The position numbers and the translations under genes are program-made. This document shows positions 4,925 to 16,386 of a stretch of DNA of 29,404 nt, piece after piece. The first letter of the stretch is position 1; every line of letters starts with the position of its first letter. Origin of the DNA: a virus; the IMG/VR virus record IMGVR_UViG_3300009183_000269, positions 1-29,404 of that record. One strand, given 5' to 3'. The notes below the pieces were generated by a model. The model was not told where the DNA came from and did no database searches. It saw only the letters and a program-made list of their open reading frames with translations.

Positions 4925-4966
4925 CTTTTAACTGTTTTGGTGCAGATTTGCTTACACGAAACTGAC

Positions 4967-4986
4967 TGTTGTTTTTATACCACACT
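4967..4986. repeat. TGTTG-N8-CAACA dyad, copy 2 (one arm degenerate)
   Basis: TGTTGTTTTTATACCACACT, 18 of 20 bases identical to copy 1 and placed 116 nt from it. The right arm is CCACA rather than CAACA. Followed by TCAGAGACT, similar to the flank of copy 3. Confidence 0.55.
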
Positions 4987-5055
4987 TCAGAGACTAGGTG
5001 TTTACCCTTAGATCTAAATAGTTATACTAAATAGGTGCTACATAGCTACTCACAC

Positions 5056-5075
5056 TGTCTCTTTTTAGCAACACT
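5056..5075. repeat. TGTTG-N8-CAACA dyad, degenerate copy
   Basis: TGTCTCTTTTTAGCAACACT keeps the right half (GCAACACT) exactly and about 15 of 20 positions overall. The left arm is changed, so only one half-site is intact. The following TCATAGCACT resembles the flank of copies 2 and 3. Confidence 0.4.
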
Positions 5076-5084
5076 TCATAGCAC

Positions 5085-5104
5085 TGTTGTGTAAATACAA
5101 CACT
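5085..5104. repeat. TGTTG-N8-CAACA dyad, copy 3
   Basis: TGTTGTGTAAATACAACACT, perfect TGTTG/CAACA arms with an 8-nt centre, 118 nt from copy 2. The bases after it (TCACTGACT) resemble those after copy 2. Confidence 0.6.
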
Positions 5105-5125
5105 TCACTGACTGCTGAGTCATTA

Positions 5126-5143: not shown

Positions 5144-5152
5144 TACTTGATA

Positions 5153-5197
5153 GGGGGGGAGGGGGAGGCTTGGGTGTTTACTTTTGTGGGAGCCTCC
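5153..5197 (+). other. G-tract (possible G-quadruplex) with adjoining stem-loop
   Basis: G7-A-G5-A-GG-CTT-GGG at 5153-5174 satisfies the pattern of four G3 runs with short loops. Overlapping it, GGAGGCT (5164-5170) pairs with AGCCTCC (5191-5197) across a 20-nt loop. No T-run follows, so it is not a standard terminator. The two structures are mutually exclusive. Confidence 0.45.
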
Positions 5198-5298
5198 TAA
5201 GTACACAAAAAAGAGTAATTAAGAAAGTAGACAATCATGACTAAAAAGTCTATAGAAATCATGGAACTTAACATAATAATTGGGGACAGGTTAGATCT

Positions 5299-5349
5299 AT
5301 GGAGATAATCTGTGCACAGGAGGGCTGTCATAGGCCCTTGAGGTCATGA
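5299..5349 (+). pseudogene. Tiny frame resembling a degenerate phage zinc-finger protein
   Basis: MEIICAQEGCHRPLRS, then a stop that overlaps the next ATG (ATGA). The CxxxxCxRP pattern resembles small phage zinc proteins that usually continue with RGLCxxHY. A shifted frame downstream reads TRGL-stop-SHI, as if a stop and a frameshift interrupt that motif. Weak ribosome site. Very speculative. Confidence 0.2.
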
Positions 5350-5415
5350 AAGTGGACACAAGAGGTCTATGAAGTCACATAGGAGACAGTAGACTAAATA
5401 AAGTTAAGAAAGTAC

Positions 5416-5443
5416 TTGACAAATGAGAAAAGTACTATATAAT
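5416..5443 (+). promoter_or_regulatory. Sigma70-type promoter for the terminase operon
   Basis: TTGACA at 5416-5421, 16 nt, then TATAAT at 5438-5443: both hexamers match the consensus perfectly. The upstream bases (AGTACTTGACAAAT) are shared in part with promoters at 7651 and 13959. Predicted start near 5450, just at a hairpin. Confidence 0.88.
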
Positions 5444-5450
5444 TCTCATT

Positions 5451-5556
5451 GAAGGTTATCCTTCCAAGAACTCAAATGAAGTCTAAGTAGACGGGCTACT
5501 TAGTTAATACGGGAAGTTCTTAATGAGTTACTTCAATGGACAACTTCCTAAGTTGT
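5451..5556 (+). promoter_or_regulatory. Hairpin-rich leader of the terminase transcript
   Basis: Successive inverted repeats: GAAGG/CCTTC (5451-5464); outer AAGAACT/AGTTCTT (5466-5521) enclosing CTAAGTAG/CTACTTAG (5483-5503); ACAACTT/AAGTTGT (5540-5556). GGAAGTT (5512-5518) can alternatively pair with AACTTCC (5542-5548), so mutually exclusive folds are possible. Confidence 0.55.
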
Positions 5557-5584
5557 ACACAAGAGGTAAATAAAGTAGTATAAT
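5556..5584 (+). promoter_or_regulatory. Possible second promoter before the terminase genes
   Basis: TACACA (5556-5561), 17 nt, then TATAAT (5579-5584). The -10 is perfect and the -35 matches four of six. Could supplement the stronger promoter at 5416. Confidence 0.4.
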
Positions 5585-5625
5585 ATACTTCATTAAGATT
5601 CTTGTACGTTAATGAAACTTACTAG

Positions 5626-5639
5626 GTACTCTAGAGTAC
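5626..5639. repeat. 14-bp perfect palindrome before the terminase gene
   Basis: GTACTCTAGAGTAC, between the promoter and the small-terminase start. Candidate operator, packaging-protein site or leader hairpin. Confidence 0.4.
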
Positions 5640-5697
5640 TATAGGTAGTGTATTCCCTATTGTTATTTATTATTATCTATCTCCTATAAGGACAAAG

Positions 5698-6129
5698 ATG
5701 GAACAGAGCACAGAGTTAAAGGTTAGTAGCTTGGATTCTCTCAAGCGAGGACGAGGTAGGCCCAAGAAGGGTGAGATAGTAGCTAAGAAGTCCAAGAATA
5801 GAGGAACCTTAGGTCGTCCTAAGGGTGATAAGGCTATTATCGATGAGTACAAAGCTAGGATGCTTAACTCCCCTAAGTCAGCTAAGGTCTTAGAGACTAT
5901 CCTCAATGCAGCTCTCAATGATGACCATAAGAACCAAGCAGCTGCATGGAAGCTAGTCGTAGATAGGATAATGCCAGTAAGTGCCTTCGAACAAACTAAA
6001 CAAGGATCTGGTACTCCTTCTATTAGCATTAACATTACAGGTCTCACTGCGCCTGTGGTTGATGCTGAAGAAGTTATGTATGACATCACGGACGTAGAGG
6101 CTAAGAACGAAGTGGACAATGATGACTAG
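5698..6129 (+). CDS. Small terminase subunit-like DNA-binding protein
   Basis: A 143-residue protein with two AT-hook-like motifs near its start, GRGRPKK (residues 18-24) and GRPKG (39-43), then a helical region (residues about 45-95, AIIDEYKARMLNSPKSAKVL ...) and an acidic tail. It lies directly upstream of and overlaps the large terminase by 11 nt, which is where the DNA-recognition subunit is normally encoded. AT-hooks contact the minor groove of AT-rich DNA; the AT-rich leader just upstream is a natural packaging-start candidate, but this is inference. The ATG has AAGGA 5 nt upstream. No direct similarity to a named TerS family was recognised, so the call rests on position, size and DNA-binding motifs. 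Confidence 0.7.
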   Translation: MEQSTELKVSSLDSLKRGRGRPKKGEIVAKKSKNRGTLGRPKGDKAIIDEYKARMLNSPKSAKVLETILNAALNDDHKNQAAAWKLVVDRIMPVSAFEQTKQGSGTPSISINITGLTAPVVDAEEVMYDITDVEAKNEVDNDD

Positions 6130-7381
6130 TCTCAACTTTGAACTCCTAAAATGGCAGCAGTCTGTCTTCGCTGATAAGCATCGCTTCAAGGTCGTAGCAG
6201 CTGGACGACGTTGTGGTAAGTCTAGGCTCTCAGCTGTGACCCTCCTCATTGAGGCTCTGAATTGTCCTGAAGGGTCAGCTGTGATGTACATAGCACCTAC
6301 CCTAGGACAAGCTAGAACTATTATGTGGGACTTGTTGCTAGACCTAGGTAGACCAGTCATCAAGTCATCTCACGTTAATAACTTGGAGATCACCCTTGTC
6401 AACGGAAGAAAGATTCTGGTACGTGGTGCTGATAATCCTGATTCTCTACGGGGTGTCTCTCTTACTTACGTAGTGCTAGACGAGTGTGCCTTTATCAAGG
6501 AAGACACATGGCAGAAGATCATACGAGCTTCCCTGTCTGACAAAAAAGGTAGAGCCTTGTTCATCAGTACCCCTAGTGGACGTAACTGGTTCTACGATCT
6601 GTTCAACCTAGGTCAAGAAGAGACTGACGAAGAATGGCGAAGCTGGCACTACACCACCAAGGACAACGAGACTATCGATCCTAAGGAGATTGAAGCTGCT
6701 GAGAGGACTCTAAGCTCCTTTGCCTTCAAGCAAGAATACTTGTCTTCCTTCGATACTGCCGGTAGTGATTTATTTAAAGAAGAATGGTTAAAGTACAAAG
6801 ATGAACCTCAATATGGTGATTACGTCATTGCGATTGACTTGGCGGGTTTTGAAGATGTGGCTAAGAACGCGGGAGCCTCTAAGAAGCGCTTGGATGAATC
6901 AGCGATCACTGTCTGCAAGATACTAGACAACGGTGACTGGTGGGTTAAGAAGATCATCCACGGACGTTGGGACATCAGAGAGACTGCTTCTAAGATCCTC
7001 CTAGCTGTCAAGGAGTATCAACCTGTCGCTGTGGGTATCGAGAGAGGAGCCTTGAAGAATGCTGTGATGCACTACCTTCAAGACTTGATGAGGAAGAACA
7101 ATGTGTATACGCACATCCACGACCTCACCCACGGGAACAAGAAGAAGACAGATAGGGTCGTATGGGCCTTACAAGGTCGTTTCGAGCATGGACGTATCTC
7201 CTTGAACGTCGATGAGGATTGGAAGCAATTTGAGGATCAGTTCATTATGTTCCCCGCCACAGGGGTTCACGATGACTTGATTGACTCCTTGTCTTACGTG
7301 GATCAACTGGCTATGACTAACTACCAGCAAGACTACGAAGAAGACGATCACGAAGTTTTAGATGTAATATCAGGATACTAA
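6119..7381 (+). CDS. terL: Terminase large subunit (packaging ATPase and nuclease)
   Basis: A 420-residue protein with the full large-terminase motif set: Walker A GRRCGKS (29-35), Walker B VVLDE (118-122), and the coupling motif ISTPSGR (149-155). The RNase H-like nuclease follows, with Asp240 in VIAIDLAG, Glu308 in VGIERGA, and the C-terminal HDDLIDSLSY motif (Asp386/Asp389). By family knowledge it powers DNA translocation into the prohead and cuts the concatemer. It overlaps the upstream gene by 11 nt; either of two adjacent ATGs (6119 or 6122) may be used. Length and motif order are typical of podovirus and siphovirus terminases. Confidence 0.97.
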   Translation: MMTSLNFELLKWQQSVFADKHRFKVVAAGRRCGKSRLSAVTLLIEALNCPEGSAVMYIAPTLGQARTIMWDLLLDLGRPVIKSSHVNNLEITLVNGRKILVRGADNPDSLRGVSLTYVVLDECAFIKEDTWQKIIRASLSDKKGRALFISTPSGRNWFYDLFNLGQEETDEEWRSWHYTTKDNETIDPKEIEAAERTLSSFAFKQEYLSSFDTAGSDLFKEEWLKYKDEPQYGDYVIAIDLAGFEDVAKNAGASKKRLDESAITVCKILDNGDWWVKKIIHGRWDIRETASKILLAVKEYQPVAVGIERGALKNAVMHYLQDLMRKNNVYTHIHDLTHGNKKKTDRVVWALQGRFEHGRISLNVDEDWKQFEDQFIMFPATGVHDDLIDSLSYVDQLAMTNYQQDYEEDDHEVLDVISGY

Positions 7382-7650: not shown

Positions 7651-7679
7651 TTGACAAATTACTACTTTTGTGATATATT
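7651..7679 (+). promoter_or_regulatory. Sigma70-type promoter for the portal gene
   Basis: TTGACA (7651-7656), 17 nt, TATATT (7674-7679), in a 69-nt gap before the portal. Preceded by AACTAC and followed by AAT like the promoters at 5416 and 13959. Confidence 0.82.
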
Positions 7680-16355: not shown

Positions 16356-16386
16356 GATCCCCTCTTCGCGGAGGGGGTCTTTTTTT
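16356..16386 (+). terminator. Rho-independent terminator after the capsid gene
   Basis: GATCCCCTC/GGAGGGGGTC stem around a TTCGC loop, followed by seven Ts (16380-16386). Likely lowers transcription of genes behind the capsid gene. Confidence 0.88.

Follow-up and report, generated by a model that had tools for sequence, protein, structure and literature searches.

A conserved, covarying leader RNA and a candidate start-codon hairpin ahead of the terminase genes of a podovirus-like phage

Comparative evidence indicates that a conserved RNA fold precedes the terminase genes in the window, by which we mean the whole stretch of DNA analysed (29,404 nucleotides). In a podovirus-like phage of ~37 kb, the stretch studied here (5416-5697) would form the 5´ leader of the late mRNA, which covers packaging and structural genes, and would carry two RNA modules. 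The first ~155 nt of the leader (5450-5605, module 1) is, judged by covariation, a conserved fold made up of three helices, P0, P1 and P2, and a second, smaller hairpin spans the start codon of the first packaging gene (module 2). Overall, the explanation we find likely is that the leader joins a cis-acting late-operon RNA (module 1) to a translational gate (module 2). Such a leader probably sets the timing of particle assembly and filling.

The 29.4-kb window is a fragment of an uncultivated virus record. Rightward from 5698 it encodes a TerS-like ORF, the terminase large subunit (TerL), the portal and the major capsid protein, with an endolysin close to the right end; a T7-type primase-helicase and a GP88 protein are among the leftward genes, and the leader is flanked by the minus-strand GP88 gene (start 4608) on one side and TerS on the other. 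The TerS-like ORF is named from its place ahead of TerL and is without a match in Pfam or PHROG, though two basic, AT-hook-like GRP motifs are visible by eye in the protein sequence, in agreement with the preliminary description. A strong hairpin-T7 terminator lies inside the late operon, immediately after the major capsid gene (16356-16379), and a similar one is present in the ~37-kb relative G012 (L150 2239-2273). By eye, the ORFs of G012 include a family-A DNA polymerase and a ribonucleotide reductase, and no phage RNA polymerase was recognised among its ORFs of at least 110 aa, inspected in the same way with no profile. A second good promoter (7651-7679, 11/12 consensus) is found downstream of the leader. 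The features discussed below are as follows.

5416..5443, plus strand: sigma-70 promoter, TTGACA-16-TATAAT, 12/12 consensus, predicted start near 5450
5451..5464, plus strand: P0 hairpin GAAGG-uuau-CCUUC at the predicted transcript 5´ end (+1); compensatory changes in 5/5 pairs, 93.2% of cells paired
5465..5481, plus strand: P1 5´ arm (P1a 5465-5470, invariant CUC of the internal loop 5471-5473, P1b 5475-5481); covariation
5483..5503, plus strand: P2 hairpin CTAAGTAG/CTACTTAG with pentaloop ACGGG 5491-5495; 89.6% of cells paired
5509..5513, plus strand: second ACGGG, matching the P2 loop in type (ACRRG) in 56/56 members having the loop
5557..5566, plus strand: conserved ACACAAGAGG segment inside P1; CACA invariant in 46/46 leaders
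5588..5604, plus strand: P1 3´ arm (P1b´ 5588-5594, conserved AGA 5596-5598, P1a´ 5599-5604); covariation
5676..5702, plus strand: candidate TerS start-codon hairpin UCUAUCUCCUAUAAGGACAAAGAUGGA, covering the Shine-Dalgarno AAGGA 5688-5692 and AUG 5698-5700, with a 4-nt CAAA bulge
5698..6129, plus strand: TerS-like ORF (143 aa)
6119..7381, plus strand: TerL (Pfam Terminase_6N, phrog_2)

The consensus promoter described earlier is indeed present (TTGACA at 5416 and TATAAT at 5438, 12/12 across a 16-nt spacer), and a TTGAC-n16..20-xWxxxT element, as defined by our own regular expression, precedes the RNA by no more than 45 nt in 66 of the 80 covariance-model matches introduced below. Downstream of the promoter, the preliminary description had seen a cascade of hairpins. 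All of the strings it named are present, in place or displaced by 1-2 bases: AAGAACT 5466 / AGTTCTT 5515, CTAAGTAG 5483 / CTACTTAG 5496, ACAACTT 5540 / AAGTTGT 5550, the palindrome GTACTCTAGAGTAC at 5626-5639, and the two arms suggested to cross-pair, GGAAGTT 5512 and AACTTCC 5542. In the window alone, the surplus of inverted repeats over chance is modest. Between 5444 and 5697 we counted 7 perfect 7-nt inverted repeats (loop 3-60) versus 2.5 in dinucleotide shuffles, a number reached by 17/300 shuffles, and 2 with 8-nt arms versus 0.8 (60/300 shuffles); the MFE of the whole leader is unexceptional (z = -1.55). A single sequence is unable to settle the structure question, and the case rests on comparative data.

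A terminase-based search gave 80 loci. Apart from L001, which is identical, 28 of 51 leaders align with the non-coding DNA at 5145-5697 over at least 450 nt (69-86% identity). A leader-derived pattern recovered 52 stretches including 19 new contigs; in 17 of these, all those with enough sequence, the leader is followed by TerS, and the other two end too early to tell. The first alignment comprised 46 leaders, each less than 98.5% identical. A covariance model then added 12 further loci with E about 1e-11 to 6e-4 (two extra rows were copies of the same contigs), and the enlarged alignment, which was fitted to the structure, holds 80 model matches in 75 distinct rows, out of 91 sources searched.

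In the 46-leader alignment, 93.7% of the P0, P1 and P2 cells are paired versus 91.4% in shuffles, and 8 pairs show double changes versus 2.5. RNAalifold picked P1 unprompted from this alignment, P1 occurs in the MFE structure of 21/46 leaders (its two halves have mean pair probabilities of 0.71 and 0.65), and the MFE z of the core domain averages -3.6 across the 46 related leaders. An unguided all-pairs covariation test (R-scape-like) on these 46 close leaders gave no pair below E 0.05, likely due to their small divergence and to much module exchange. The signal is far stronger in the enlarged alignment: 95.4% of pair cells are standard versus 81.4% (sd 0.5) in shuffles, and 220 cells are double changes versus 48, with 0/500 shuffles reaching either value. 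Further pair types number 44 versus 34.5 in shuffles, and slid controls are 29-52% paired. Across the 75 distinct rows, 99.6% of P1a and 100% of P1b cells are paired (P1b there taken as 5475-5480). P2 has double changes at 4 pairs, while its two middle pairs are frequently open; in the 46-leader alignment they are broken in 20 and 16 of 45 distinct rows. When changes were mapped on a tree of the 70 members whose TerL was long enough, P1 was double-kept on 46 branches, single-kept on 3, double-broken on 2 and single-broken on 0, compared to 0-5 double-kept and 40-62 single-broken branches for three slid controls, although not all of these branches are independent events, as leader modules may recombine.

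A further scan used GAACTCANNTNAA ... TTNANNTAGATTC as its pattern and left the pairing positions free, an assay independent of structure fitting. All 20 new terminase-linked loci (L259-L278) pair at 3/3 inner and 3/3 outer positions, whereas all nine loci without a terminase (L258, L279-L282, L285-L288) fail, with 0-2 of the 3 inner pairs. L283 and L005 proved to be one contig, and L284, a separate new case, is considered below. Bacterial and archaeal genomes contained 15 pattern matches, none of which pairs at 6/6 positions (at most 4/6), and an extra viral scan gave one chance match, inside an ORF. The distant matches of the covariance model, which include L194, L214, L225, L166 and L162, have both arms altered in step, as in L194 (CAGGAA-CUC-AGGUAAA with UUUACC-AAGA-UUCCUG), and the TerS of L162 is merely 36% identical. 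In 37 other leaders, a stricter de novo search with the P1 pattern found no match, and those of L066, L163, L175 and the L015/L217 group were therefore taken as other types.

We noted that L066, L070, L163, L175, L177, L200 and L217 have different leaders at the equivalent place that apparently are structured too. By eye, those of L066 and L070 combine a CAGGGG..CCCCUG helix with AGUGAA/UUCACU arms around CUC and AGG.

The homologous leaders show the compensatory base changes expected of a structured cis-regulatory leader RNA, which module 1 would be by this measure. Covariation or conservation in homologous leaders had been set beforehand as the test of that idea, and the idea survived; structured RNA control is strongly supported, but the fold differs from the one proposed. 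The repeats of the hairpin cascade are real, yet only CTAAGTAG/CTACTTAG recurs as a helix among those named, and the best-supported helices (5451-5464, 5465-5481/5588-5604 and 5676-5702) were absent from the earlier list. The nested outer hairpin AAGAACT/AGTTCTT is without covariation in the homologous leaders; as a conserved fold it was rejected, its covariation score being reached by 496/500 shuffles and one of its pairs being open in 32/45. The AAGAACT arm has its partner in TTCTTG ~130 nt downstream, rather than in AGTTCTT, and the earlier outer hairpin competes with P1 for this one 5´ arm. The ACAACTT/AAGTTGT region is swapped for other sequence in many members, and the palindrome GTACTCTAGAGTAC is complete at 14 bp in 3/46 leaders, its inner CTYTA core alone recurring.

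Several unpaired segments of module 1 are also highly conserved. The 5´ arm reads AACTCA in 80/80 members and the 3´ arm xAGATT in 79/80, making the CUC/AGA internal loop nearly absolute. In 56 members the P2 loop is GACRRGC and is followed by UACRRG, with equal RRG triplets in 56/56 (AGG in 33, GGG in 15, AAG in 8); no column fully complementary to the ACRRG purines was found in the leader or the upstream region, and the identity of the two copies could reflect block inheritance. The other 24/80 members are without the GACRRGC loop, and most show, by eye, a GAAG-CCUGACCCCA-CUUC hairpin instead. The ACACAAGAGG segment possibly forms a small hairpin with a bulged A, and variants such as CACCCUGAAAGGGG were seen by eye in distant members.

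The module 2 hairpin has the form NNN-UCC-loop-GGR-YAAA-N´N´N´ and lies directly ahead of TerS. In the window it is weak (-7.1 kcal/mol, z -1.68), and near matches of its motif (up to 3 mismatches) occur at this site only, although chance would often yield one. A scan for its core, requiring UCC, GGR and NAAA with the outer arms free, was carried out on 74 terminase-selected loci with at least 440 nt upstream of TerL, and the core was present in 65. Outer pairs 1-3 are complementary in 40/40 distinct sequences despite changes in pair type (CG30/GC9/UA1, UA38/UG1/CG1 and AU34/GC5/UA1), and the unpaired YAAA bulge is kept. In collection scans with the S position of the 3´ arm left free, 96 distinct TerS-linked sites comprised 67 C-G and 29 G-C pairs with 0 mismatches, while 9 mismatches were found among 32 sites without TerS. 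Thus, base pairing of the Shine-Dalgarno sequence and/or start codon is kept by covariation, as in phage operator hairpins at ribosome binding sites. In distant relatives the AUG has moved just past the stem, leaving the start codon outside it (GUC/GAC forms). Where an HNH ORF is inserted, this ORF uses the AUG of the hairpin, and its stop codon overlaps the restart of TerS. By our own reading, the ORFs inserted between the hairpin and TerS are HNH- or NUMOD-like in L018, L221, L231, L232, L246, L104 and L235.

Module 1 occurs once per record in 12/16 phage records and is not matched in the other 4. It is separated from the start-codon hairpin by 27-407 nt (median 74; 69/80 matches have a hairpin within 900 nt), and this variable distance, together with the HNH-type ORFs after the hairpin, suggests that module 1 is independent of a fixed spacing to the start codon. 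The L284 locus extends this observation. Its RNA (model E 0.0012, 6/6 tested pairs formed) lies downstream of TTGACA...TACTAT; after it come a 182-aa ORF with no Pfam match and then an unrelated TerS and TerL (best phage match EBPR podovirus 1, 39%). Although a single case, this arrangement favours an operon-level role over a TerS-specific one.

We envisage that the transcript would start near 5450 and that module 1 would fold while leaving RNA polymerase, the +1 hairpin forming before the domain closed by P1 with its CUC/AGA loop. The target of this cis-acting RNA would then be the transcription complex or the 5´ end of the mRNA. Tentatively, and at somewhat less than even chances, module 1 might help host RNA polymerase transcribe the long late operon, a function like that of the put RNAs of phage HK022. 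An effect on the transcription complex is the option we prefer, since the element lies close to its promoter, tolerates variable spacing and is common to unrelated first genes, and since the operon contains the hairpin-T7 terminator after the capsid gene. Terminators after capsid genes can, as in T7, be only partly effective with no antitermination involved. The leader itself was found to contain no terminator, and given the second promoter at 7651-7679, the late genes need not depend on the leader. Otherwise, module 1 may be a protein- or ligand-sensing or stabilising leader. For module 2, there is a good likelihood that the hairpin holds translation of the packaging operon low until it is opened or is released by a protein. 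A broader proposal, to which we give a rather low probability, is that a promoter-proximal fold unrelated to put, alone or with one protein at the paired ACRRG sites, reprograms host RNA polymerase for the whole late operon, and that this module, coupled to a separate start-codon gate, has been inherited by or exchanged between unrelated lytic podoviruses without their own RNA polymerase.

Several other readings of the leader were weighed. One that is possible, but doubtful, is a protein-responsive leader, in which TerS or another phage protein binds the paired ACRRG, the start-codon hairpin or both, and thereby represses the operon when packaging protein suffices. The identity in type of the two ACRRG copies in 56/56 members without a complementary partner in the leader is what a shared trans partner would produce, and the preserved YAAA bulge and the basic GRP motifs of the TerS-like protein fit as well. 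Against it, the element stays with the operon rather than with TerS where an HNH ORF or another first gene follows, and a TerS homologue still follows in 23/24 members that have no GACRRGC loop. The compact RNA, with conserved unpaired segments and a nearly invariant internal loop in a long-range helix, might also suggest a riboswitch that senses an infection metabolite, such as a nucleotide, and gates the late operon. A 9-bp alternative pairing of the P1 3´ arm (5590-5598) with 5518-5526 is possible in many leaders, and by alignment reading all 8 leaders with CATTAAG in the 3´ arm carry the matching CTTAATGAG. However, this pairing is mismatched by eye in several members, and a bistable switch in which 5518-5526 and 5465-5481 compete for the 3´ arm was set aside for this reason. 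A riboswitch is improbable given also that the leader has no expression platform (there is no terminator, and the distance to the ribosome binding site is long and variable) and no Rfam riboswitch match.

Two readings tied to packaging itself are weaker still. Packaging-recognition (pac/cos) sites are often located just before terS, and the preliminary description had considered the repeats as possible sites for the TerS-like protein. The leader lies immediately ahead of terS, and conserved non-coding DNA extends upstream of the promoter to about 5145. Yet compensatory changes preserve complementarity across a span of 107 to 140 nt while the sequence itself changes, which argues for an RNA rather than a DNA site; the element is linked to a promoter; and no clustering of contig ends in the leader was seen among ten long relatives. 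In this set, the end overlaps the start by 123-127 nt in six, a length typical of assembly k-mers, and by 58 nt in one, with no overlap in three and scattered breakpoints, a picture compatible with packaging ends here or elsewhere. The 36-kb relative G008 starts just past its equivalent of the GGGGGGGAGGGGG tract (see below) and ends there in a poly-G run, so contig breaks near that tract probably are sequencing artefacts. We regard a DNA-level packaging signal as very unlikely. A trans-acting or structural RNA released from the leader, akin to the packaging RNA (pRNA) of phi29, is the least probable of these readings. It would account for the terminase linkage, the single copy per genome and an end well ahead of the gene, but past 5605 there is neither a terminator nor a separate 3´ end, the element keeps its place at the head of the operon in the examined loci, and a phage whose terminase is unrelated carries it too. 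The phi29 pRNA is likewise a phage RNA tied to DNA packaging genes, but it is a separate transcript that acts in trans on the motor. Compared with known pac/cos sites next to terS, the location and the repeats or dyads are alike, whereas conservation here tracks RNA pairing and not DNA sequence.

Returning to a cis-acting leader RNA with a start-codon gate, the two modules resemble different known systems. Phages without their own RNA polymerase must steer late genes via the enzyme of the host, usually with a protein like lambda Q; control by RNA alone is represented by put. RNAs of the put type suppress pausing and termination by binding the beta´ zinc-binding domain of RNA polymerase. Like the put RNA of HK022, module 1 would be a structured RNA at or near the +1 position of a phage operon read by host RNA polymerase, as predicted from the sigma-70 promoter at 5416-5443. 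In the published account, putL sits just downstream of its promoter, and the put RNAs are ~70 nt long with two stem-loops, occurring in early operons in two copies (PMC9378689). In contrast to that description, module 1 is ~155 nt long (down to ~94 nt in L067), combines a 5´ hairpin with a domain closed over a long range, and heads a late operon in one copy. Lacking the ~70-nt fold of two stem-loops given in that description, module 1 is outside the put family.

For module 2, the closest likeness is to the translational operators that phages place at ribosome binding sites, such as those of MS2/R17 coat and of T4 RegA and gp43, which share a short hairpin with an unpaired bulge over the Shine-Dalgarno sequence and AUG. 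The hairpin described here, a candidate operator, differs from these in that the start codon leaves the stem in distant relatives. Its occurrence suggests a general timing device for terminase expression.

Searches of Rfam (4227 families) gave 0 matches at the gathering score in the window and none up to E 1 in L194, L214 and L166. Three sub-threshold, chance-level matches fell near the leader, the best being a T-box at 17.2 bits versus a cut-off of 93. No description of this leader RNA was found in one open-access literature library, which is no proof of absence from print. On sequence grounds, module 1 is a new family of phage leader RNA, and as a recurrent, covarying RNA absent from Rfam it provides a concrete new element for assays.

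Conservation about equal to that of the leader also extends over the non-coding region upstream of the promoter (5145-5415), which as a plus-strand RNA folds unusually strongly (z -3.12, 0/200 shuffles). Within it, CACAGGAGG (5315) and GGACACAAGAGG (5354) resemble the ACACAAGAGG segment of the leader, and a conserved GGGGGGGAGGGGG tract lies at 5153-5166. Further upstream, the divergent intergenic region at 4965-5113 contains three direct repeats of ~31 nt (ACTGTTGT...ACACTTCA), possibly sites for a regulator or an origin.
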